Position numbers and translations under genes: made by a program. The notes beneath the pieces are model-generated. The model did no database searches, was not told the origin of the DNA, and worked only from the letters and a program-made list of their open reading frames with translations. Below, piece after piece: positions 11,215 to 64,000 of a stretch of DNA of 64,000 bases (the stretch's first letter is position 1; every line of letters starts with the position of its first letter). Location of the stretch: positions 124,001 to 188,000 of the forward strand of contig DQPL01000131.1 in assembly GCA_015664885.1 (NCBI GenBank), written 5' to 3'. The stretch is from Gemmatimonadota bacterium (GTDB lineage: Bacteria; Gemmatimonadota; Gemmatimonadetes; Longimicrobiales; Gaopeijiaceae).

Positions 11215-14200
11215 TCAGAACGTGACCCGAAGGGTCATATGAAGGCTGGCGAGCGGCGGCATGTTCCAGTAGTTGCCTCCACCACCCTGGGTGGGCGCGC
11301 CGTACTCAGGATCCGAAATCTGCACACCGTAGATGTCGGTCTGAGCACGCCAGAGCGTGAACACGTTCCGAGCCGATACCGCGAGGGACATGCTCTCCGC
11401 CCCAGTCACGCCGATCAAGGACGCAGGGAACCGATACCGGGCTCCGAGCTCGCGCAGCTTCCAGAAGTCCCCGTCGTAGTACCTCTTCGTACGGTTGTCC
11501 GTGAACCTCCCGCGATCGGCCGCCTGCCAGAGCGCGTTGTTCTCGAGTTGGGAGATTCGCGTGTTGTTGTAGATATGGCCCCACTCCGCGGCATTCTCGG
11601 AAGCGGTCCTGCCGAACTGGCCCTGTGCCATGGCGAAGAGTTGGAGAGAGTTGTCGAGAAGACTCAGGGTGGGCTGAATGCTGAAGATGTACGTGTAGAA
11701 CTCCGGACCGATCAGGATCGGGTCCGTCCCGACGTCCGCGCACGGAATCGGGGTGGCGCCGGGGCGTCGACCGGAGGCGGCGCCTGTCACGCCTTCCGCC
11801 GGGAAACCGGGGTCGCACATGGCGTTGATCGGCGTCCCGCGGGTCTCCCCAGCGGGGAACTCTGCGCCCGTAACCCAATACCGGGTTCTCGCGCTCGGGA
11901 ACGGATAGCCGATCTGAATGCCACCCGTGGGAGCGAACGTAGCGAGGTCGACGATCTCGTTGTTCGTATGGTCGCCCATGAAGTTGATTTCGAACGAGAA
12001 GTCATCGTTCTCGTACACGCGCGTGTTCAAGGATGCTTCCCAACCCCAGGTGTCGATCTGGCCGACATTGGACTGCACTGCGCCAGGAAGACCCAGGCTC
12101 GGTGCGAACCCGGCATTCAACAGTGCGTCCTTGTTCTGCTGCCTGAAGAAGGTGAACTCGCCGGAGATGCGATCATCCATGATCGCCATGTCGAATCCGC
12201 CCTCGTATTCGGTGCTCACCTCAGGTCCAACGTCGGGGTTACCCGGGCTAGAGGGTCTGAGGGCCGCAGTTCCGCCCGGTCCTGGGATGACTCCCCACAG
12301 GTTCGTCGCGGCGAAAACGCTCGGCTGACGACCTGCCTTCCCCCACGCGCCACGCACGCGCAGTGAGTTGATCAAGTCGAAGTTCCAGAAGGACTCCTCC
12401 GAAACCACGTAGGTGCCCGAGAACTTCGGGTAGATCTGCGCCTCGAAGTCGGCACCGAAGGCGGAGTTGTCGTCGAACCGCACCGCACCGGTAAGGAACA
12501 GGCGGTCGTTCCAGCCGATCTGCTCCTGCACGTAGAAACCGAGAGACTTGTTCTCGATATAGTCGTACGTGAGCGTCAACCGCTCCACCGGTGTCTGGTT
12601 GACCGACCGCGACAGCGGCGAGGCAAAGCCCTCGCCCTGAGTCCGAAGGTTCTCGAACCGCCGCATACTGTACTGGGCACCGAAAGAGGTCTTGAGATCG
12701 AGAAAGCCCACCGGGCTGTAGTCGATCGTGGCCGAGTAATCCAGGCTCTGGACCTCGGTCATGGGGTTCCCGTAGTCGATCGTCCCCGAGACTGTCTCAG
12801 AGTACACCGCCTGGTTGGGAGGCGGGGCGGGATTCCATGGGAAGAGCACCTGGTTGGTGTCCCAACCCTTGTCGATCCCGACCACAACGCGCTGGTTCAA
12901 CCAGCTGCTGAAGTTGTGGTTCACCGTTGCGCTCCCCGTGAAGCGAGTGTAGTCGCGGGTAGCGGTGATATTCGCGACGTCCGAAGGCAAGTGCTCCTGG
13001 AACCCGTATAGACGCTCGTTGGCGCCAGGGGCATTGGTGTCCAGGAAGTAGCCGTTCGCCCACCGTAGGTCCTGCCAGATCCCACCATCGGACCGCACGG
13101 GCGTGGCGAACCTGGTATTGCCGTCCACGTAGCCCGTCGAAACGTCGAGCGTAATGCTCTCGGAGAAGACGACGCTGACGTTGGCCCTCGTCCTGAAGGT
13201 CTTGTCGTTATTGTACCAGACGGCTCCGCCTTCATCTTCGTAGTTCGTCGATAGGAAGTACCTGATGTTCGACGTTCCTCCGCGGACCCCGAGGTCGTAC
13301 GAACTCGAGAGCCCGTTCCGGAAGAGATTCTCGCTTCCCCAAGGGAAGGCACCCTCACGGATGTACCGGTTGGCCTCGTCGTACATGTTGTACGTGAAGA
13401 GGTCCGATTCCGCACAAGGCGTCCTGCTCGAGGTCTTGCATGCATACATGGTGCCAAGGTCGCCAGCCGGGTCGCTCATGTAGTTGACGCCTTGTCGCAC
13501 CGACGCGCTGAACTGGGGCGCGCCTTCTCTACCTTTCTTGGTAATGATCTGGATCACGCCGGCGGACGCCTCGGTTCCGTATAGCGTCGCTGCCGCCGGA
13601 CCCTTGATGATCTCGATGCTCTCGATGTCCTCAGGATTGAAGTCGTCGAGAACGCTGACCTCGCCGCCAGTGCTGCCAGCTTCGTCCTGCATGATTGCAT
13701 ACCGGTAGCCGAGCATGGGGCCCGCTCTGCTCTGGTTGTTGACGCGAACGCCGTCCACGTAGATGAGGGGATTGGACGACAGGTTGAAGCTGCCGACGCC
13801 CCGAATCTTGATGGACGAGCCCGTGCCGACGTTTCCGCTCAGCCTAGTGAACTGCAGGCCCGGTGTCCGCCCGGCCAGCATGTCCTGCATGTTGGCGATG
13901 GCGACCCGCTCGGTGACCGCGGCCGCGTCCACGGTTGTGACCACGTTACCGATAGCCCGCTTCTGAGTACCGCCCGGTGTTCCGGTAACGATGATCTCAT
14001 CGAGGCTCAGCGCTTCTTCCGTGATTTCGAAGTTCTGCGCCATCGTCTCGCCCGCGCCCAACGTGACCGACTCGGTGGTCGTGCGATAACCGATCCGCTG
14101 GACCGTCACGGTATGGGTGCCGATGGGCACGTTGAGCAGAAGGTACGAGCCGTTCTGCCGTGTCAGCCCGCCCAAGTCCAGTTCGGCAATGAACACTTGA

Positions 14201-14349
14201 GCTGCCGCAACTGCCTGGCCGGTCTGACTGTCGGTCACCCGGCCGGTTATAGAACCGCCCTGGGCTGCGACATCGAGCGGCGCGAACAGCAGCATCGCCG
14301 CAAGCGCCCCCAAAGTCAGTGTCATACGCAAACGAATGCGTCGGTACAT
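11215..14349 (-). CDS. SusC/RagA-like TonB-linked outer-membrane transporter
   Basis: A 1044-residue TonB-dependent outer-membrane barrel. After the signal peptide (about 1-29, ending DVAAQ) comes a carboxypeptidase-regulatory-like domain ('GSITGRVTDSQTGQAVAAA'), then the SusC region 'LDEIIVTGTPGGTQKRAIG', the plug domain with 'IKIRGVGSFNLSSNPLIYVD', and a long barrel ending in aromatic 'MTLRVTF'. These are the standard marks of SusC/RagA proteins. The start at 14349 has GGAGGACC 8 bases upstream; a longer frame upstream has no support. The downstream SusD-like gene is coupled. Energised uptake through TonB is established for the family; the ligand is unknown. Confidence 0.93.
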   Translation of the reverse strand: MYRRIRLRMTLTLGALAAMLLFAPLDVAAQGGSITGRVTDSQTGQAVAAAQVFIAELDLGGLTRQNGSYLLLNVPIGTHTVTVQRIGYRTTTESVTLGAGETMAQNFEITEEALSLDEIIVTGTPGGTQKRAIGNVVTTVDAAAVTERVAIANMQDMLAGRTPGLQFTRLSGNVGTGSSIKIRGVGSFNLSSNPLIYVDGVRVNNQSRAGPMLGYRYAIMQDEAGSTGGEVSVLDDFNPEDIESIEIIKGPAAATLYGTEASAGVIQIITKKGREGAPQFSASVRQGVNYMSDPAGDLGTMYACKTSSRTPCAESDLFTYNMYDEANRYIREGAFPWGSENLFRNGLSSSYDLGVRGGTSNIRYFLSTNYEDEGGAVWYNNDKTFRTRANVSVVFSESITLDVSTGYVDGNTRFATPVRSDGGIWQDLRWANGYFLDTNAPGANERLYGFQEHLPSDVANITATRDYTRFTGSATVNHNFSSWLNQRVVVGIDKGWDTNQVLFPWNPAPPPNQAVYSETVSGTIDYGNPMTEVQSLDYSATIDYSPVGFLDLKTSFGAQYSMRRFENLRTQGEGFASPLSRSVNQTPVERLTLTYDYIENKSLGFYVQEQIGWNDRLFLTGAVRFDDNSAFGADFEAQIYPKFSGTYVVSEESFWNFDLINSLRVRGAWGKAGRQPSVFAATNLWGVIPGPGGTAALRPSSPGNPDVGPEVSTEYEGGFDMAIMDDRISGEFTFFRQQNKDALLNAGFAPSLGLPGAVQSNVGQIDTWGWEASLNTRVYENDDFSFEINFMGDHTNNEIVDLATFAPTGGIQIGYPFPSARTRYWVTGAEFPAGETRGTPINAMCDPGFPAEGVTGAASGRRPGATPIPCADVGTDPILIGPEFYTYIFSIQPTLSLLDNSLQLFAMAQGQFGRTASENAAEWGHIYNNTRISQLENNALWQAADRGRFTDNRTKRYYDGDFWKLRELGARYRFPASLIGVTGAESMSLAVSARNVFTLWRAQTDIYGVQISDPEYGAPTQGGGGNYWNMPPLASLHMTLRVTF

Positions 14350-14482
14350 TTGTTGGTCCTCCGTCTTGAGGGCGGACCCCTCGACCCGGACTCGCCACCT
14401 GGAGAGGGCAGGGTTCAGCCTGAGCTGAGAAGGGTCACACATCATTCAGAACCACCTTTGTCATACGCGTTACCGAACGTGA

Positions 14483-14744: not shown

Positions 14745-15575
14745 ATGCACTTGTGGCGTCCGTCAGTCGTTCTTGCGGCTGCCGTCTGTCTGTTCGCGGC
14801 ACCAAGCGAGGCGCAGGTCATCCCGCAGGAGGGGCGGGTTTTCAACGAACAGCTGCTTCGGCCGTCTGGCCAGGCGGTTGTCCCCCTATTCGAGGGATGG
14901 TTCGAGAACTCGGACGGCACCTCGGACATCTGCTTCGGATATTTCAACCTCAACACCGCAGAAGCCCTCGACGTGCCGCTGGGGCCGGACAACTTCATCG
15001 AGCCGAGCGAGTTCGACGGCATGCAACCGACGCACTTCGATCGCGTGCCGGAAGCCGGTTACCGACGTCATTTTTGCGTTTTCACCGTCACCGTGCCCGA
15101 GGACTTCGCTCAGGGCCGGGTGGTGTGGACGCTGCGCACACGAGGCGAGCCGCTCTCGACCCCGGGCAAGCTGCTGCCACCTTACTATTTGGACGAACCC
15201 GAGACCGGAGGCCGGGGCGTCGTGGCCCCTGTGCTCAAGCTGGACGCCGACGGACCCGAGTTCCAGGGTCGGACCGGCCTCACTGTCTCGCCCCGTACGG
15301 TCGCCGTTGGAGATCCGCTCACGTTGACGGTCTGGGTCGATCACCCGGCACCGAGAAGCTGGGTGGGCTGGACCGTGCACCAAGGGCCGGGCCACGTGGA
15401 GTTCGGCGAGGCCGAGATGCAAGTGGAGCAAGCAGACGGAACGGCGACCACGACGGCGAGATTCAGCAAGCCCGGCGAGTACCTCGTGCGGGTACAGTCT
15501 ATTTTCTCGACAACGTCTTTCGAATACCATTGTTGTTGGACGAACGGATACATCCCGGTGACGGTCACGCGATAA
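14745..15575 (+). CDS. Secreted 'CCWTNGY' protein, copy 1 (unknown family)
   Basis: A 276-residue exported protein with a signal peptide (cleavage near SEAQ, residue 23). I do not recognise a named family. The body is probably beta-rich. Two signatures recur in its paralogue at 61725-62708: 'GWFENSDGT...FGYFNLN' near 51-70 with 'EFDGMQPTHF' after it, and a C-terminal Ig-like strand 'FSKPGEYLVRVQ' followed by 'CCWTNGYIPVTVTR' at the very end. The vicinal Cys-Cys could bind a metal or form a disulfide. GGGAGG lies 5 bases before the ATG. It opens a five-gene operon, and in both copies it lies next to a cytochrome c/PHM-like gene, so the two proteins probably act together. Confidence 0.82.
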   Translation: MHLWRPSVVLAAAVCLFAAPSEAQVIPQEGRVFNEQLLRPSGQAVVPLFEGWFENSDGTSDICFGYFNLNTAEALDVPLGPDNFIEPSEFDGMQPTHFDRVPEAGYRRHFCVFTVTVPEDFAQGRVVWTLRTRGEPLSTPGKLLPPYYLDEPETGGRGVVAPVLKLDADGPEFQGRTGLTVSPRTVAVGDPLTLTVWVDHPAPRSWVGWTVHQGPGHVEFGEAEMQVEQADGTATTTARFSKPGEYLVRVQSIFSTTSFEYHCCWTNGYIPVTVTR

Positions 15576-15624
15576 AATGCGCATACGACAAACCAGCCTT
15601 TTACAGATAAGGGCGGAGGACATC

Positions 15625-16992
15625 ATGACAAGCGACAGCTCAAGCCACGGGCGATTTGAACAGGGCCTCGGCACCGGTCTGGCGACCCTGGTCATTCTGA
15701 CTTCACTCGCGACTTCGCCCGCGCACGCGCAGGAAGTGACGTACGCGAAGGACGTCGCTCCGATCCTCTACGAGAACTGTGCGAGCTGTCACCGTCCCAA
15801 CGCCTTTGCGCCGATGTCGTTGCTCACGTATGAAGACGCCAGGAGGTATGCGCCCCGCATCAGGGCGCGCGTCGAGGCGCGCATGATGCCGCCCTGGCAT
15901 GTGGATCGTAGCGTGGGAATCCAGGACTTCTCAAACGATGTATCGCTGAGCGACGAAGAAATCGAGACGATCGTTCGCTGGGTGGACGCGGGTGCACCCC
16001 AGGGTGACGAAGCGGGCATGCCGCCGCCGCCCGACCTGCTGGAGGGCGGTGCTTGGCAGCTCGAGCAGGAGTTCGACCGGCCGCCCGATTTGATCGTTCA
16101 GTCGACACCCTATGACGTCGTCGACAATGGACAGGACCAGTGGTGGGCACCGAGCGTGCCGTTCGAGGGCCTCGACGAAGACCGGTGGATCAAAGCGTAC
16201 GAATTCAAGCCGGCCTGGCCGATGGGCCTCAGGGTCGTTCACCACGGTCATGCCTACCTGCGAGTAGCCGGCCGACAGATCGGCCTTGCGCACTACGGAA
16301 TCGGGAAACGCTACGAGACGTTCCCAGACGACGTCGGCATGCTCTTTCCGGCCGGTGAGGCTGAAGTGACGTGGAATCTCCACTACTTCCCGGTCGGCAT
16401 CAACGTGCCTCAGGACGTCGTGGACGTCGGGGTGTGGTTCTACCCGAAGGGCGAAACGCCCAAGACCGAGACCCGGGGCGAGGTCTTGATGCGAGCCGAC
16501 CGCATGGGTGGCATGCCGAGGGGCGGCGACATCCTGGTTCCACCGCACGGGCAGCAAGTGCTGCAAGGCGTGCACGTGCTCGACGAGCCGACGCTGATCA
16601 CCAGTTTCAGGCCCCACCTGCACATGCGGGGCAAAGAAATGTCGATGGAGGCGATCTACCCGGACGGTCGGCGTGAGGTGTTGGGCAAGGTCTCCGATTA
16701 CAAGCACATCTGGCAGATCGCATACCAGTTCTCGCCGGACGCGAGGCCGCTCCTGCCCAAGGGCACGATGCTCATCTTCACGTCCGTGTTCGACAACACC
16801 GCCGCCAATCCGCTCAATCCCGATCCCGAGCAGTGGGTGGTATTCGGCAGACGCGGCGTAGACGAGATGTCCCACATGTGGGTGGGCATCACCGAGCTCC
16901 AGCAGGCGGAGTTCGATCGGCTGGTCGCTGAGCGCACGGCCAAGCTGGTCTCGGAGGAGGAACAGGGCGGAACCGAAGACCAGCGTCGCTAG
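15625..16992 (+). CDS. Cytochrome c fused to PHM-like copper monooxygenase domain, copy 1
   Basis: A 455-residue exported protein. After a signal peptide (about 1-36) comes a cytochrome c domain with 'CASCH' at 52-56. The rest matches copper type II ascorbate-dependent monooxygenases (PHM/DBH fold). Candidate CuH ligands are His206-His207 ('VVHHGH') and His253 ('WNLHYFP'); candidate CuM ligands are His331 and His333 ('RPHLHMRG') and Met415 ('DEMSHMW'). This spacing follows PHM, which hydroxylates a C-H bond. Fusion to heme c suggests electrons arrive through the cytochrome instead of ascorbate; that is inference. The start at 15625 is chosen because GGAGGA lies 6 bases upstream; an ATG at 15577 just after the previous stop lacks a ribosome site. 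The operon continues 3 bases later. Confidence 0.82.
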   Translation: MTSDSSSHGRFEQGLGTGLATLVILTSLATSPAHAQEVTYAKDVAPILYENCASCHRPNAFAPMSLLTYEDARRYAPRIRARVEARMMPPWHVDRSVGIQDFSNDVSLSDEEIETIVRWVDAGAPQGDEAGMPPPPDLLEGGAWQLEQEFDRPPDLIVQSTPYDVVDNGQDQWWAPSVPFEGLDEDRWIKAYEFKPAWPMGLRVVHHGHAYLRVAGRQIGLAHYGIGKRYETFPDDVGMLFPAGEAEVTWNLHYFPVGINVPQDVVDVGVWFYPKGETPKTETRGEVLMRADRMGGMPRGGDILVPPHGQQVLQGVHVLDEPTLITSFRPHLHMRGKEMSMEAIYPDGRREVLGKVSDYKHIWQIAYQFSPDARPLLPKGTMLIFTSVFDNTAANPLNPDPEQWVVFGRRGVDEMSHMWVGITELQQAEFDRLVAERTAKLVSEEEQGGTEDQRR

Positions 16993-16995
16993 GCG

Positions 16996-19212
16996 ATGCC
17001 TGCGTCTCTGACGAGGCCTCCGCGACTCGTTCGCATATCGCTCTTCCTCGCGGTCGCCATCTGGGTGTCGCCGGGCGTGCCGGCGGCCCATGGCACGGCC
17101 TCCGCGCAGCAGGCATCGTACACGCAAGATCAGGCTGAAGCCGGCGCGGCGGTGTACCGGGAGACGTGTGCGGAGTGCCACCTCGCGAACCTGAGAGGTT
17201 CGTTCGAGGCGCCGGAGCTGTCCGGTCGCAGTTTCCGGTCGACCTGGCGCGGCGGCATGGTGGCCGGTCTGCTCGACCTGATCCGAGAGACTATGCCTCC
17301 AGACGCGCCACGCACGCTGAGCGAGCAACAAACCGCATCGGTGGCGGCCTACCTGTTGCGCGAGAACGGAGTCTCGTCGGCCAATACCCCACTGAGCCTC
17401 TCCTCCCCGGGCCGAGTGTTCGTGGCGGAAACCACATCAGCGAGGCCGGCCCCAGGTGCCGAGCGTACACCGATCCCCGGGCGGGTCGGCACGGTGTCTT
17501 CACCGGGGGCAGTGAATGCCGCACCGGAAGTGGGCTCGCTCTCCGAGACGCCCACCGGGGTCACCCGCAGCTACGGTGTGCCCTCGCGTTTCACGCCGGT
17601 CTCCAACTCGGACCTGGCAGACCCCCCCAGGGGTGACTGGCTCCAGTGGCGTGGCAGTCCAGGAGCGCAGGGCTACAGCCCGCTGAGCCAGATCGACCGC
17701 CAGAACGTGGACCGTCTCCAGCTCGCCTGGGTGTGGGGCATGGAGCCTGGCACGAGTCAGTCGTCGTTCCTGGTGCGAGACGGCGTCATCTTCCTGCCCA
17801 GCCAGGCCAACGTCATTCAAGCGTTGGACGGCAAGGACGGTACGCTGCTGTGGGAGTACCGCCGGACGTTCGCAGAGGGTACCAGCATCGGACGGGGCCA
17901 CTTGAGGAGCCTCGCGATCTGGGAGGACCTGGTGCTGGTGGCCACGCTCGACGCCCACCTGGTCGCGCTCGACGCGCGCACCGGTGTCGTGCGCTGGGAG
18001 ACACAAGTCGCTGATCACGACCTGGGCTTCGCCTACAGTTCCGGCCCCGTCGTGGCCGACGGCAAGGTCATCACCGGCATCGGTGGATGTACTCGCTTCC
18101 AGGAGGAGAGCTGCTTCGTCACCGCCCACGATGCGCGCACCGGCAAGGAGCTCTGGCGCACCTACACGGTGGCCCGCCCCGGCGAGCCCGGCGGCGACAC
18201 TTGGGGCGACTACCCGCTCGAACTGAGAGGCGGCGCGGACATCTGGATCACGGGCAGTTGGGACCCCGAGCTGGGTCTCGTCTACTTCGGCACCGCGCAG
18301 GCCAAGCCTTGGATGGCGGCCAGCCGCGGGCTCACGACGGCCGACTCTACGCTCTACGCCAACTCCACGCTGGCGCTCGACGTCGATGACGGGCGCATCG
18401 TCTGGTACCGGCAGCACGTGCCCGGCGAGACGCTCGACATGGACGAGGCCTTCGAGCAAGTCCTCGTAGACGTCGACGGCGTGCCACTTCACCTATCCAT
18501 CGGGAAGTCCGGAATCCTGTGGAAGCTCGATCGGCGGGACGGGACCTTCCTGGGGCTGACGGAGACAGTCTACCAGAACGTGTTCGCGGGACTCGATCGC
18601 GAGACCGGTGCAATCCGCTACCGCGAGGACATCCAAAACGCCCAGTTGGGTGAATGGCTCTCTGTCTGCCCGTCCACCGCGGGAGGCCACAACTGGCCCT
18701 CTACCGCGTTCTACCCGCAGAGCGCACTGCTCGTGGCCCCCTTGAGCCAGAGCTGCATGGAGATGTCCGCGCGTCCGACGACCCTGGAAGTCGGGAGGGG
18801 CGGTACCTCGGCGGTCCGCATGTGGATGCCGATGCCTGGCAAAGAGGGGCGGTTCGGCAAACTGGCCGCCTACGACGTGCGCACACTGGACGAGGTCTGG
18901 AGTGTAGAGCAGGAAGCGCCTTTCCTGACTGGCGTGCTCACGACCGGCGGCGGGCTCGCCTTCGTGGGAGACTACGACCGCTGGGTACGTGCCTACGACG
19001 TGGACACCGGGGAGCCACTTTGGGAGAGTCGATTAGGCAGCTCGGTGGAGGGCTTCCCGGTCAGCTTCGAGATCGACGGCGTCCAGTACATCGGCATCCC
19101 GACCGGGCGAGGTGGCGGCAGTCCGTGGCGCATCGGAAACTTCCTCACGCCCGGACTCGTGAGCCCGAGCGGCCACAATGCGCTCTACGTCTTCAAGCTC
19201 GGCGGGTCCTAG
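16996..19212 (+). CDS. Cytochrome c / PQQ-dependent dehydrogenase fusion, second paralogue
   Basis: A 738-residue exported quinoprotein with the same order as the gene at 1964-4072: signal peptide (about 1-38), cytochrome c with 'CAECH' at 58-62, a low-complexity linker, then an eight-bladed PQQ propeller from about 210. Shared stretches such as 'GSFEAPEL' and '[10 protein letters not shown]' show common origin. The likely catalytic segment is '[16 protein letters not shown]', again with Asp-x-Asp. It would oxidise an alcohol or hemiaminal-like product in the periplasm and reduce its own heme. It begins 3 bases after the PHM-like gene stops and the next gene begins on the base after its stop, so the three are surely co-expressed. 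Confidence 0.9.
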
Positions 19213-59095: not shown

Positions 59096-61681
59096 TCAAC
59101 GCGAAGGATAGCCGCCGACCCAGACCGGACTCGACCAGGCCATGGCGTCGTTCACCTGCCGCACACGGATGTAGTAGTAGTCCCCCTCTTGGGGCTCCCG
59201 CGCGTCCGTGTAGCTGAAGGCGACGTCACGCTCTCCATCGCGGATGATGTGTCTCAAGGTAATTCCGTCGTCGGGATAGCCGTCGGCCGGAAGCGCACGC
59301 TCCAGCCTGCCGCGACGCAGGTCGGCGAGCCCTAACCTGACCCGTTGACCGGGGATGGTCACAGGCAGCCGCACGAACGGGGGCGCCGACCCGGTCTCAC
59401 GAGCCTCGTCCAGATCCAGAACGATCGCCGCCCCCGGCTGAACGTTCGAAAGCGTCAACCGCAGCGAGCTCCAGTCGCCACGGGTGTGGGTGGCAAAGCG
59501 CGCGCCGTTGCCCTCGCGCTCCAGGAGCTGGGTTCCCGGGTTCACGAAGTCCGTCGCTTCGATGGCCTCGAGTTCGGCTCCTTCGACCGCGATCGTGCCC
59601 CGCCAGTGCCGCCAACCCCGGGGCACGTCGAGCTGTACGGGCGTCTCGTCGGAGTGAAAAGAGAGCAACAGCTCCATCGACTGGGAGGCATCAGCCGTCT
59701 CGTCGGTCAGGTAGTCCTGCCACCAGATCGCTTGGCCATTCTTGAAGAGCGTGATGGACTCGATGGCAGCGGTGCCAACGACGCGTCCCGTGACAATCCG
59801 GGCCTCGGCAGAGGGCGCGCGCTGGCCCATGCCGACCCCGTTGAGCTCGACGTCGAGGATGATGCGATCACCTGTCGTCGCATATGTTTGCCGCGCTTTC
59901 ATAGCGTCGAACAACGCGTCGCGCGACCGCTCGGGCGCCATCACCGCGCCGAGACCGCCCCGTTGTGCGAGCGAATTGCGGTTGGGCGCCGAGTAGCCGG
60001 GGTGGGAAAGATGGTCGTCCGAGGCGGCGACGAACCCGACCTGATGGCCGCGCGAGAGATAGCTGCGCGCGAACCACTCGAAGGTGCCGTGCATCGACAT
60101 CATCTCGACGAGCGGCTCGAGCGCCGGGTTCGATTGGCGGAAGTCGCCCGGGTTGTGCGCGTGAGGAATGGTGAGCACGTCGTCCGGATCGTAGCGCTCC
60201 TGTAGGCCCTTGTAGAGCTCCGATAGCACGGGATACTCCAGCGCCGAGACCCGCTCGTAGTTCTGGACGCTGCGGAAGATCACGTTGTGGTGGCCGCCGA
60301 AACGCGTGTGCCTCGTCCACTCGTAGCCCAGATAAGGGATGAACTCACCGGGTGCGTCGAAGGTCTTGGTAGCCTCCTGCATCAGCGCCCACTCACCGTC
60401 GTCGAGCCAGATGTCGTGCTCGGCGTGCGTCACGAAATCGAGCCGGGCGTCATCCCTGGCGAAGCGCATGAAGAAGTCGATGGTGCCGATGCCTTCGGCA
60501 TAGCCCGAGTGCCCATGCGTGTCGCCCCAATAGATGCGACGCTCGGGATTCTCGACGACGAGGATCGGATTGGCCTCGCCTCTGATCGAGCCGTCCTGCG
60601 AGCGGAGGCTCACCCAATGGGGTCCCGGCTCGTCCAGGCTGAGCTCCACCAGGGCGATCGCTTCAGTCCCGCCTTGGGTAGTCGCGCGCACCTCGCCGTT
60701 CACCAGAACGTCGAAAGCCGGGATCCGACCGGTGGCTCGATTGAAGTAGCGGTCCTCGGCGCGAACCGAGAGCGTGAACGTCTCGCCCGGCTCGACGATG
60801 CTGGGGGCGAATCCGTGAACGCCCGCAACCTGCTTGCCGGTGATGATGATCGGCTGGATGGGCAGCGGACGCCACTCGCCGGACCCGTCGAGGTCCACAT
60901 AGAGCGGCAAGGGCATGCGCTCGCTAGAGGTGGTGGGGAGCAGCAGCCCCCGACCACCCGCGCTCGTCTCACCGTAGGTGATCGTCACCGTCTCACCGGC
61001 CTCGAGCGTGCCTTCTGTCAGGCGAAAGGCGATGGCAGGTTGGGGTCCACGGAACCCACCGTGCGGACCCGACGCCATGTAGATCCATGGTTCGAACACC
61101 GCGTCCGAGTCACTCGTTTCGATCGTCACGTATCCGTCGAGCGCCGGATTGTCCGCTTGAAAGCGTCCGAAGTTCGCGGAGAAGTGCCGCGCGACCCAGA
61201 ATCCGCCGCCTGGCTGGACCGCATGGGTGCCGACCGTCCAGATCTGTCGGATCGTTGCATGAGTGCGCGCCTCGAACGGGCCCAGCGACTCGGCCGTGAG
61301 CTCGCCGAGCGCGCCTTCTTCGTCACGCAGCGTGAACTCACGTACGAGCCGGTCGAGGCTTTCCGATTGACGCACCGCGCCGCGCCCGCTCGGCGGCATC
61401 GTGGACTGGAGCCGAATGCGAGGGCCTTCGAGGCCGACCTCGCCCCCCACCATCGAGTAGGCGTCGGCCCAATCGGCGAGCACCTGCGCGCGAACCGCGA
61501 TGGTCGACGCATCCGTCGGAGTGGCGGCCACATCCGACTTCAACTCATCGACGGCGGCACGAAGCTCGGGCGTGAGATAGTGGTCACCGCCGGACACGCC
61601 TGAATCGCATGCCGCTAGGGATACCACGGCCGCGAGAGAGGCGCACAGCCGGGTGGATCGGGCCTGAAGCATCGTCGCCAT
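59096..61681 (-). CDS. DUF3604 lipoprotein
   Basis: An 861-residue predicted lipoprotein ('AAVVSLAACDSG') of the DUF3604 family, which has a PHP-like metal-dependent fold. The domain is near 385-640: 'YWGDTHGHSGYAEGIGTID', 'FVTHAEHDIWLDDGEW', 'ARSYLSRGHQVGFVAASDDH' and 'ATTGDRIILD' line the probable metal site. Ahead is a long Ig-like/beta-sandwich region (about 130-375). Family function is not proven; phosphoesterase-like hydrolysis is expected from the fold. It lies 43 bases after the CCWTNGY copy 2 stop and 34 bases before the PRPP synthetase gene. Confidence 0.87.
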   Translation of the reverse strand: MATMLQARSTRLCASLAAVVSLAACDSGVSGGDHYLTPELRAAVDELKSDVAATPTDASTIAVRAQVLADWADAYSMVGGEVGLEGPRIRLQSTMPPSGRGAVRQSESLDRLVREFTLRDEEGALGELTAESLGPFEARTHATIRQIWTVGTHAVQPGGGFWVARHFSANFGRFQADNPALDGYVTIETSDSDAVFEPWIYMASGPHGGFRGPQPAIAFRLTEGTLEAGETVTITYGETSAGGRGLLLPTTSSERMPLPLYVDLDGSGEWRPLPIQPIIITGKQVAGVHGFAPSIVEPGETFTLSVRAEDRYFNRATGRIPAFDVLVNGEVRATTQGGTEAIALVELSLDEPGPHWVSLRSQDGSIRGEANPILVVENPERRIYWGDTHGHSGYAEGIGTIDFFMRFARDDARLDFVTHAEHDIWLDDGEWALMQEATKTFDAPGEFIPYLGYEWTRHTRFGGHHNVIFRSVQNYERVSALEYPVLSELYKGLQERYDPDDVLTIPHAHNPGDFRQSNPALEPLVEMMSMHGTFEWFARSYLSRGHQVGFVAASDDHLSHPGYSAPNRNSLAQRGGLGAVMAPERSRDALFDAMKARQTYATTGDRIILDVELNGVGMGQRAPSAEARIVTGRVVGTAAIESITLFKNGQAIWWQDYLTDETADASQSMELLLSFHSDETPVQLDVPRGWRHWRGTIAVEGAELEAIEATDFVNPGTQLLEREGNGARFATHTRGDWSSLRLTLSNVQPGAAIVLDLDEARETGSAPPFVRLPVTIPGQRVRLGLADLRRGRLERALPADGYPDDGITLRHIIRDGERDVAFSYTDAREPQEGDYYYIRVRQVNDAMAWSSPVWVGGYPSR

Positions 61682-61724: not shown

Positions 61725-62708
61725 TTACCGCGTTACGCGCACCCTGACGTACCCGTTGGTCCAGCAGCACTGGTCGTTCGAGGCGCTATCCACCGCATTG
61801 AAGTTGTCCACCTGCGCGCGCAAGACATACTCACCCGGCTCAGAGAACGTCACGATCACGCTGGCTAAGCCGTGCCCTTCCTCGAGACGGACGCTCTCTG
61901 GCCCGGGAGGATTGTTGTTCCTCGCGATGGCGCGACGACCCGCGGCGCTGGTGGAATCCACCACCTCCTCCTGCTCTGGCACCGGGTTGGACTGGTGCCG
62001 CGTGAACTCGACGTCCCCAGAACTCTGGTACGTGGACCAAACCACACGCAACGCAACGCCTTCCGCGGAACGAAAGTCGTCGGGGTCCCTCTCTGAAGGG
62101 TCCCTCGCGTTGATCGAGAGCACGATCGGAGAGCCTACCGTGGCCGTCACCGTACGCCCTGCGGCGATGCCTCCAGGTCCCCTTCCCTCCTCGCCGCTGC
62201 CCGACTCGAACCAGACGAGTGGGTGGAGGGAGCCCTGGGGCCGCTTGTTCCAGTCCAGCTCGTAGGCGATGGCGCTGGTCCGGCCGGGCACTCGCATGAC
62301 CTCTTCGGTCCCGTCGCGGGCCCCAAGATTCCACCAGACGTCCTCGCCTTTCCGGTCCGCCGGCAAAGTCACCGCAAACACGCCGCGGTGCCGTCCAGGA
62401 AGGAAAATGGTGGGCTGCATCCCATCGTACTCGGCGACTTCGATGCGATTGTCCTCGCCCACGGGGATCGCCACGACGGTCTCTTGGTTCAGATTGAGGT
62501 ATCCGAACGCGACGGTGTAGGTCCCGTCTTCGTTGGCGTACCAACCCTCCATAAATGGGATGACGTTTTGTTGCCCACCGGATGACGGCTGGGGCTGCAA
62601 GAGCAAACGGCCGTCCGTCGCCTGGGCCTCGAGCGCCGCCGCGCCAGCGACAACACCGCACAGAAGCAGCACGAAGGCCACCCCCCGACCCACCGTGCGA
62701 ATCCTCAT
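61725..62708 (-). CDS. Secreted 'CCWTNGY' protein, copy 2 (unknown family)
   Basis: A 327-residue exported protein (signal ending near AALEAQ). It shares with the 14745-15575 protein the motifs 'GWYANEDGTYTVAFGYLNLN', then 'DNRIEVAEYDGMQPTIF', and the C-terminus 'FSEPGEYVLRAQ' followed by 'CCWTNGYVRVRVTR'. The middle is longer and holds a loop rich in Glu/Arg/Asn absent from copy 1. GAGGG, overlapping the upstream stop, lies 8 bases before the ATG, and only 11 bases separate it from the cytochrome/PHM-like gene. It is the second instance of this pairing, in reversed gene order. Confidence 0.82.
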   Translation of the reverse strand: MRIRTVGRGVAFVLLLCGVVAGAAALEAQATDGRLLLQPQPSSGGQQNVIPFMEGWYANEDGTYTVAFGYLNLNQETVVAIPVGEDNRIEVAEYDGMQPTIFLPGRHRGVFAVTLPADRKGEDVWWNLGARDGTEEVMRVPGRTSAIAYELDWNKRPQGSLHPLVWFESGSGEEGRGPGGIAAGRTVTATVGSPIVLSINARDPSERDPDDFRSAEGVALRVVWSTYQSSGDVEFTRHQSNPVPEQEEVVDSTSAAGRRAIARNNNPPGPESVRLEEGHGLASVIVTFSEPGEYVLRAQVDNFNAVDSASNDQCCWTNGYVRVRVTR

Positions 62709-62719
62709 CGTCAGTACCC

Positions 62720-64000
62720 TCAGGAGATGATCTTTGCCTTCTCCTTGCGCTCCTCGACCAGCCTGTCGTAGCCATCTTCATCGAGGTGAGTGACACCGAG
62801 CCAGAAATGTGACATCTCGTCGGCGGTCCGGCTCCCGTAATCGACCCACTGATCCGGATCCGGGTTGTTCGGATTAGCCGCCGTATTGTCGAACCACTGT
62901 TTCATTACGAGCACTGCGCCGGCCGGAATCAGGGGTGCCACGTCGTCCTCGTAAATGTGGCTCTGGTGCCACACGGCGCTCCAGTTGGAGACCATGCTGA
63001 TGACCTCGGTGCGCCCCGTCTCCGGATAGAAGATCTCCAGGGACGCGGACCGCAGGCGCAGGTGCCCGTGCGGCTGGAAGCTGTCGAGACGGACCGGATG
63101 GTCGAACGACTTCAAGCCCTCGGTCATCTCGATCCCGTTCGGCGGCAGCAGCAGGTCGCGCTGACCCTCCATGAACCCGTACAGGCCCAGGTCCTGCTTG
63201 TACTCGTATTCGTAGTCCTCCGGATGCAGCCAGATGCCCAACTCAACCACGTTGTCGTGGATCACCTCGTCCGCTGCCAAAGTCCCGAGCCCGCCCGGAT
63301 ACATGTGGATGTCCCAACGCAGCCAAGAGTCTGCAGGAAGGACTCGGCAAACGCCGTCGGGAATGAGCTCGCCCAGCTTGCCCATCGCGTACTCGGTCGC
63401 TCGATCGCCCGTGCCGACGAAAGAACCGTCGTCCTGCCTGAGCTGGAACGTGGAGTTGGCGTGGTGGACCACACCCTTGGCGTTCCCGGAGGGTTTCACC
63501 TGAAGGGCTTTGATGCAGCGATCACCAGTAATCCCGATCGGAGCGAAGGGGCGATGCCACAGGTCGAGTCCGGAGGCCGGCACGTCGATGGGGCTCGAGG
63601 GAACGACCACATCGGGCGTACCCAAGGTGGGCGTAAACGACCACTCTTCGGTATCCGGCAAGTCGGCCATCGCGGGCATGTCAGCCGGATCGCCCATGGG
63701 CGCACCCTGATCGACCCACTCGACGATGGTGTTGATGTCCTCATCGGAGAGGCGCCAGTCGTGCTTGAGCTCCTGGATGCCGATGTCGTTGTCGTAGTAG
63801 TACGGCGGCATCAGACGGTTGGAGACCTGACGGCGGATGCGCCGCGCGTAGCGCTTGGCATCGTCGTAGTCGACCAGATTGATGGGTCCGATCCCACCTG
63901 GCCGGTGACAAACCGTGCAGTTCTTCTGGATGATGGACGCCACATCAGCGGCGTACGTCACATCCACGTCGATCCCGTCCGCCGAGGCGAAAGTGACCTG
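62720..64000 (-). CDS. Cytochrome c / PHM-like copper monooxygenase fusion, copy 2 (cut by window edge)
   Basis: At least 426 residues, continuing past the right edge, where the signal peptide must lie. The frame reads through from the last base with no stop. A cytochrome c domain has 'CTVCH', and the PHM-like part repeats the copper-site pattern of copy 1: 'VVHHANSTF', 'WDIHMYPGG', 'QPHGHLRL' and 'DEMSHFWLGV'. Common stretches such as 'RIRRQVSNRLMPP' and 'FDNTAANPNNPDPDQW' show that both genes are paralogues. It probably heads the leftward run that contains CCWTNGY copy 2, DUF3604, a PRPP synthetase and HupE. Confidence 0.82.
   Translation of the reverse strand, partial: QVTFASADGIDVDVTYAADVASIIQKNCTVCHRPGGIGPINLVDYDDAKRYARRIRRQVSNRLMPPYYYDNDIGIQELKHDWRLSDEDINTIVEWVDQGAPMGDPADMPAMADLPDTEEWSFTPTLGTPDVVVPSSPIDVPASGLDLWHRPFAPIGITGDRCIKALQVKPSGNAKGVVHHANSTFQLRQDDGSFVGTGDRATEYAMGKLGELIPDGVCRVLPADSWLRWDIHMYPGGLGTLAADEVIHDNVVELGIWLHPEDYEYEYKQDLGLYGFMEGQRDLLLPPNGIEMTEGLKSFDHPVRLDSFQPHGHLRLRSASLEIFYPETGRTEVISMVSNWSAVWHQSHIYEDDVAPLIPAGAVLVMKQWFDNTAANPNNPDPDQWVDYGSRTADEMSHFWLGVTHLDEDGYDRLVEERKEKAKIIS

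Follow-up and report, generated by a model that had tools for sequence, protein, structure and literature searches.

Peptidylglycine alpha-hydroxylating monooxygenase (PHM) and dopamine beta-hydroxylase (DBH) are animal enzymes of textbook standing, with ascorbate as their electron donor. Here we describe a bacterial gene pair, found twice in a 64,000-nucleotide stretch of a Gemmatimonadota genome (contig DQPL01000131.1, positions 124,001 to 188,000; termed the window), in which a c-type-cytochrome/PHM-like protein (CY) is encoded beside a CCWTNGY-family protein (CC). The second pair of the window is one of twelve genome copies of a widespread, undescribed bacterial pair, and the assignment of CC as the dedicated partner of CY is strongly supported. 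How electrons are delivered to, and move between, the two coppers of PHM and DBH is a standing question, and the copper ligands of DBH (H262, H263, H333 and H412, H414, M487) constitute the same set as those of CY (PMC4846438).

CY resembles human DBH (PDB code 4zel) in the predicted fold of its catalytic core (Z-score of 21.6 over 275 residues), in the full set of copper ligands and in the presence of an N-terminal domain preceding the core. It differs from DBH in that the N-terminal domain is a predicted c-type cytochrome and in having a separate partner gene, and sequence identity is ~12%. PHM displays the two-domain CuH/CuM core (Z-scores of 16-21) with His-His, His, His-x-His and Met ligands common to CY, but it uses ascorbate and has no heme, in contrast with CY, which carries a CxxCH heme c domain and is paired with CC. 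In the open-access literature, no paper with the CCWTNGY motif and none on a heme c-fused bacterial PHM was found.

The two window pairs and the CY protein

Pair 2, on the minus strand, comprises the CY gene (CY2; 62720-64000) located 12 bp upstream of the CC gene (CC2; 61725-62708). The CY2 open reading frame, encoding a predicted c-type cytochrome domain and a PHM/DBH-type dicopper monooxygenase, is interrupted where the window ends and continues to the equivalent of window position 64078, such that only ~78 bp, corresponding to the signal peptide, lie outside the window. CC2 is a 327-residue open reading frame with a signal peptide, two predicted Ig-like β-sandwich domains and a C-terminal CCWTNGY. 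In pair 1, on the plus strand, gene order is reversed. The CC gene (CC1; 14745-15575) encodes 276 residues, ends with HCCWTNGYIPVTVTR and presents a PKD match below cut-off (E-value of 0.0011), while the CY gene that follows (CY1; 15577-16992) is a complete open reading frame of 471 residues as called, although an internal ATG near 15626 is a likelier start. CY1 contains all copper ligands and the CxxCH motif, and gives weak matches to the Cytochrome_CBB3 and Cu2_monoox_C profiles.

The sequence-only reading had placed two pairs at these positions, in opposite order and with similarity in both partners, and this description holds. CC1 and CC2 share about 33% identity (E-value of 2e-37) and CY1 and CY2 about 40% (E-value of 5e-103; 33-42% overall), which is far beyond chance. 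The motifs it had named were all found, namely EFDGMQPT/EYDGMQPT, CCWTNGY, CxxCH, HH, WNLH/WDIH, PHLH/PHGH and DEMSH.

CY is an exported protein in which, according to the AlphaFold model of CY2 (predicted local distance difference test, pLDDT, of 91; predicted template modelling score, pTM, of 0.89), an N-terminal c-type cytochrome precedes a PHM/DBH-type dicopper monooxygenase core. When the model was compared with the PDB, DBH and PHM were followed by the next unrelated entry at a Z-score of 7.9, and a hidden Markov model match to 4zel (E-value of 0.0066) aligned both His motifs in register. Using CY2 numbering, copper ligands H168, H169, H221 and H300, H302, M385 are invariant in 71 of 71 CY relatives, as are CxxCH and M53, the latter a possible axial heme ligand on the basis of its conservation. 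All 16 CY paralogues of the source genome retain CxxCH, the Met and the copper ligands at equivalent positions.

Profiles PF03712 (Cu2_monoox_C) and PF13442 (Cytochrome_CBB3) match the correct parts of CY, the latter weakly in 64 of the 71 relatives, with the window CY proteins under the Pfam cut-offs for both, so that standard annotation would miss the enzyme. A solitary CY paralogue on contig 31 exceeds the PF03712 cut-off whereas the window proteins do not, so this profile, whose cut-off is a matter of annotation and not of biochemistry, is too narrow for the CY branch. CY is thus best termed a divergent branch that shares the fold and ligands of the PHM/DBH superfamily, rather than a member of PF03712. 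The fused heme c suggests an electron donor other than ascorbate.

Pairing and co-divergence of CC and CY

The source genome (3.96 Mb, 136 contigs, 99% complete) contains 12 CC genes, 16 full-length CY genes and two weaker hits confined to the cytochrome part, as revealed by a profile search of the contigs. In-frame stops within some CY matches were assumed, without case-by-case inspection, to mark where the gene itself terminates, at the match edge. All 12 CC genes share a strand with a neighbouring CY gene, with gaps of -3 to 149 bp, and the frequent -3 overlaps and small gaps between partners suggest translational coupling. Four CY genes (L049-L052) stand alone; a serine beta-lactamase-type hydrolase neighbours L049 and a CDGSH protein L050, while L051 and L052 have no obvious neighbour.

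The earlier description of a duplicated pair stands in that both window pairs are true family members, but the genome has twelve pairs, and neither of the two in the window is the closest copy of the other. Within the genome, pair 2 is most similar to a pair on contig 79 (82% identity for CY and 55% for CC), and in the CY tree the window pairs were placed in different well-supported clades. These identities, together with the CY tree, rule out a recent duplication with inversion linking the two. As the contig 79 pair is closer to pair 2, the window displays two members of an old expansion, and on sequence comparison the two window pairs are old paralogues.

The 12 CC proteins form two clades, clade A (six members), in which CCWTNG[YFW] precedes the last strand, and clade B (six members), which lacks the motif. 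Distance matrices of CC and CY correlate strongly over the 12 pairs (r = 0.95, a value reached in 0 of 20,000 permutations), and co-divergence is retained within clade A (r = 0.88, exact p of 0.003) and within clade B (r = 0.80, p of 0.017). Since all 12 pairs belong to one genome, shared species history is not the cause of the overall correlation; the partners were therefore duplicated together and not swapped.

Pairing extends across the phylum. Among 81 Gemmatimonadota genomes, CC is present in 23 and CY in 24, and every genome with CC also has CY (Fisher p-value of 2.5e-19, which overstates independence because the sample contains closely related genomes). In the same sample a CY gene lies next to 70 of 71 CC genes, without exception in the same direction; CY comes first in 48 cases and CC in 22. 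Gene order changed eight times on the CY tree, at least seven of these changes being forced by well-supported branches and a few deriving from order-ambiguous arrays.

A scan of GTDB with CCWTNG as the search pattern revealed 292 relatives, while a scan with all 12 CC proteins together found no conserved stretch. In the best 80 of the 292 loci, 79 of 86 CC genes adjoin CY and most exceptions lie at contig ends; these loci come from metagenome-assembled genomes (MAGs) assigned to Gemmatimonadota, Acidobacteriota, Gammaproteobacteria, Acidimicrobiia and a Nitrosomonas bin, assignments possibly affected by binning errors. Some arrays contain two CC genes per CY (L057, L059 and L138, the last on contig 53 of genome G004). 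These are tandem arrangements such as CY-CC-CC-CY-CC-CC, and the two CC proteins per CY differ from each other. CC homologues thus lie mostly beside CY genes, and the proposal of the sequence-only reading that CC is a dedicated partner, kept through duplication and rearrangement, is borne out in the source genome (12/12), the phylum (70/71) and the GTDB loci (79/86).

Predicted fold and proposed role of CC

CC is an exported protein, for which the AlphaFold model of CC2 (pLDDT of 88, pTM of 0.81) predicts two Ig-like β-sandwich domains, and Ig-like folds were matched structurally for residues 45-147 and 157-327. The best structural match is Saccharophagus degradans 2yhg (Z-score of 10.0 over 108 residues, 21% identity); the match to its C-terminal Ig-like domain, or to PKD domains, covers about one CC domain and does not imply shared function. 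PKD was detected at E-values below 0.01 in 18 of 75 CC proteins (best E-value of 6e-5), the window CC proteins being below cut-off or unlisted. Pfam, NCBIfam and PDB sequence searches gave nothing above cut-off, in agreement with the earlier remark that no known family name suggested itself for the CCWTNGY protein. No profile match to DOMON, the N-terminal domain of DBH, was obtained for CC, and DBH is absent among the fold matches listed.

Taken together, we lean towards CY and CC forming a two-component exported copper monooxygenase, in which CC is an accessory or specificity subunit; a substrate binder or accessory subunit is the role we prefer for CC. In such a system, the CuH site of CY (His-His...His) would take up electrons and the CuM site (His-x-His...Met) would activate oxygen, the two together hydroxylating a C-H bond of a presumably diffusible substrate. 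The covalent N-terminal heme c would replace or supplement ascorbate, and may pass electrons from a periplasmic cytochrome or a PQQ (pyrroloquinoline quinone)-dehydrogenase pool to CuH. CC would bind CY stoichiometrically, sometimes with two CC per CY, and either mould or cover the surface at which substrate binds or present substrate to CY. Duplicated CY proteins, each retaining and co-diverging with its own CC, would then generate a repertoire of substrate-specific pairs. In the last Ig domain, CCWTNGY, which is confined to one clade, would probably serve as a vicinal disulfide or an interface loop rather than as a copper shuttle.

Several observations weigh against this proposal. Ig-like domains, as modelled here, are generic and do not prove a binding role. 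In the 81 genomes, 16 of 86 CY genes lack an adjacent CC gene, so CY can probably work without CC, and a few CC genes in the GTDB loci are truly solitary (L104, L122, L135 and perhaps L136). No natural CC-CY fusion was identified among the scanned loci, where frames of 560-920 residues were checked in part only; a long frame at L139 is an overlap in another frame, not a fusion.

Unpaired CY genes, together with the rarity of CC without CY, also fit a periplasmic CC that acts in the same pathway, for example in free substrate binding or surface docking, and is co-expressed with CY without forming a stable complex. Ig-like folds are common in binding proteins, and TonB receptors and PQQ dehydrogenases lie beside several pairs. 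Tight co-divergence and an adjacency kept through changes of gene order fit direct contact better, without proving it, and we regard this explanation as unlikely, if credible.

The sequence-only reading had raised the possibility of a copper chaperone, that is, a metal-loading factor for CY with the vicinal Cys of CCWTNGY as a Cu(I) site. Clade A CC proteins indeed conserve no Cys other than Cys314 and Cys315, and clade B CY proteins (L043-L048 and L139) have a C-terminal GCPLC only where the partner CC lacks CCWTNGY, resulting in one extra Cys pair per pair in both clades; no tail CxxC occurs in any intact clade A CY. That the Cys pair sits in the partner in one clade and in the enzyme in the other is curious but may reflect a single evolutionary event. 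The motif is missing in 6 of the 12 CC paralogues, the alignment of which contains no conserved Cys, His or Met except the start Met, and the use of CCWTNG as the search pattern accounts in part for the full Cys invariance among the 75 members of the larger set. With Cys-Cys in one clade only and no invariant His or Met, a chaperone role is quite improbable. The Cys-Cys pair was rejected as a family-wide feature of CC.

CY itself could be a copper/heme protein of PHM fold that is not a monooxygenase; it might instead transfer electrons, store copper or act as a sensor, and CC would be its structural partner. PHM-like folds are not always enzymes, and double jelly-roll relatives were found at Z-scores of 6-8. 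Nevertheless, the invariance of all six ligands of both copper sites in relatives and paralogues alike fits catalysis, and a non-enzymatic CY is very improbable. We give a slightly lower standing, as highly improbable, to CC being the substrate, which CY would oxidatively modify, perhaps at the conserved C-terminal motif, as PHM does with peptides. One-to-one or one-to-two pairing and co-divergence fit an enzyme with a dedicated protein substrate, PHM acts on peptide C-termini, and in clade A it is a motif close to the C-terminus that is best conserved, but clade B has a different ending without the motif, which in the clade A model precedes a β-strand of a folded domain rather than forming a free tail. 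An electron link from the respiratory chain or a dehydrogenase to CY, also suggested by the sequence-only reading, would suit the association of CC with a redox enzyme but is scarcely credible, as CC has no heme, Fe-S or cupredoxin motif, its only conserved metal ligands are the clade-limited Cys-Cys, and CY already has its own heme c.

Genomic neighbours and implications

Directly downstream of pair 1 is a PQQ-dependent dehydrogenase with a cytochrome c domain of its own (16996-19212, plus strand; PF01011 E-value of 1e-62, Cytochrome_CBB3 E-value of 7e-9), which might catalyse the next step on the hydroxylated product of CY. Divergent from pair 1 is a TonB-dependent receptor with a carboxypeptidase-like N-domain (11215-14445, minus strand; PF00593, PF07715, PF13715), possibly an uptake link for the pair. 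Three PQQ dehydrogenases directly adjoin a pair, the one in the window and those on contigs 12 and 14; the contig 12 gene (L047:7648-9915, minus strand) is fused to a CHRD domain. The genome has about 40 PQQ dehydrogenase genes (PF01011) in 4 Mb, apparently a large set. Directly downstream of pair 2 lies a DUF3604/CehA-McbA-type metallohydrolase gene (59096-61681, minus strand; PF12228 E-value of 5e-18, NF038032 E-value of 2e-15, below its cut-off).

Of 13 loci with a creatininase-family gene, most have it a short distance upstream of CC; such a gene, with a signal peptide, was observed upstream of CC at L069-L071, L100-L102, L105, L112, L117, L127, L132 and L133. At L063-L068, from MAGs of Pseudomonadales and other Gammaproteobacteria, the pair is accompanied by a TonB receptor, SapC, DUF6445 and a tryptophan-halogenase-like gene (neighbour families as displayed by L063), and the CC motif reads CCWSNAY or CCWSNAF. 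The neighbouring genes lend weak support to the proposed function of CY and CC.

More broadly, though with less confidence than in the two-component enzyme itself, we tentatively propose a new kind of dicopper monooxygenase system, of PHM/DBH type and wired to the respiratory chain through a fused heme c in place of ascorbate, with an obligate Ig-like specificity subunit, or a dedicated protein substrate, for each enzyme, that provides uncultured Gemmatimonadota with a 12-pair repertoire of secreted oxidases and is present also in MAGs of Acidobacteriota, Pseudomonadota and Actinomycetota. If this is true, a function would be assigned to two gene families now annotated as hypothetical or as bare cytochromes, and the CY/CC pairs would be a source of exported C-H hydroxylases. 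With its heme c donor built in and its partner co-evolving, such a large bacterial branch would also constitute a new model for the electron-transfer question of PHM and DBH.
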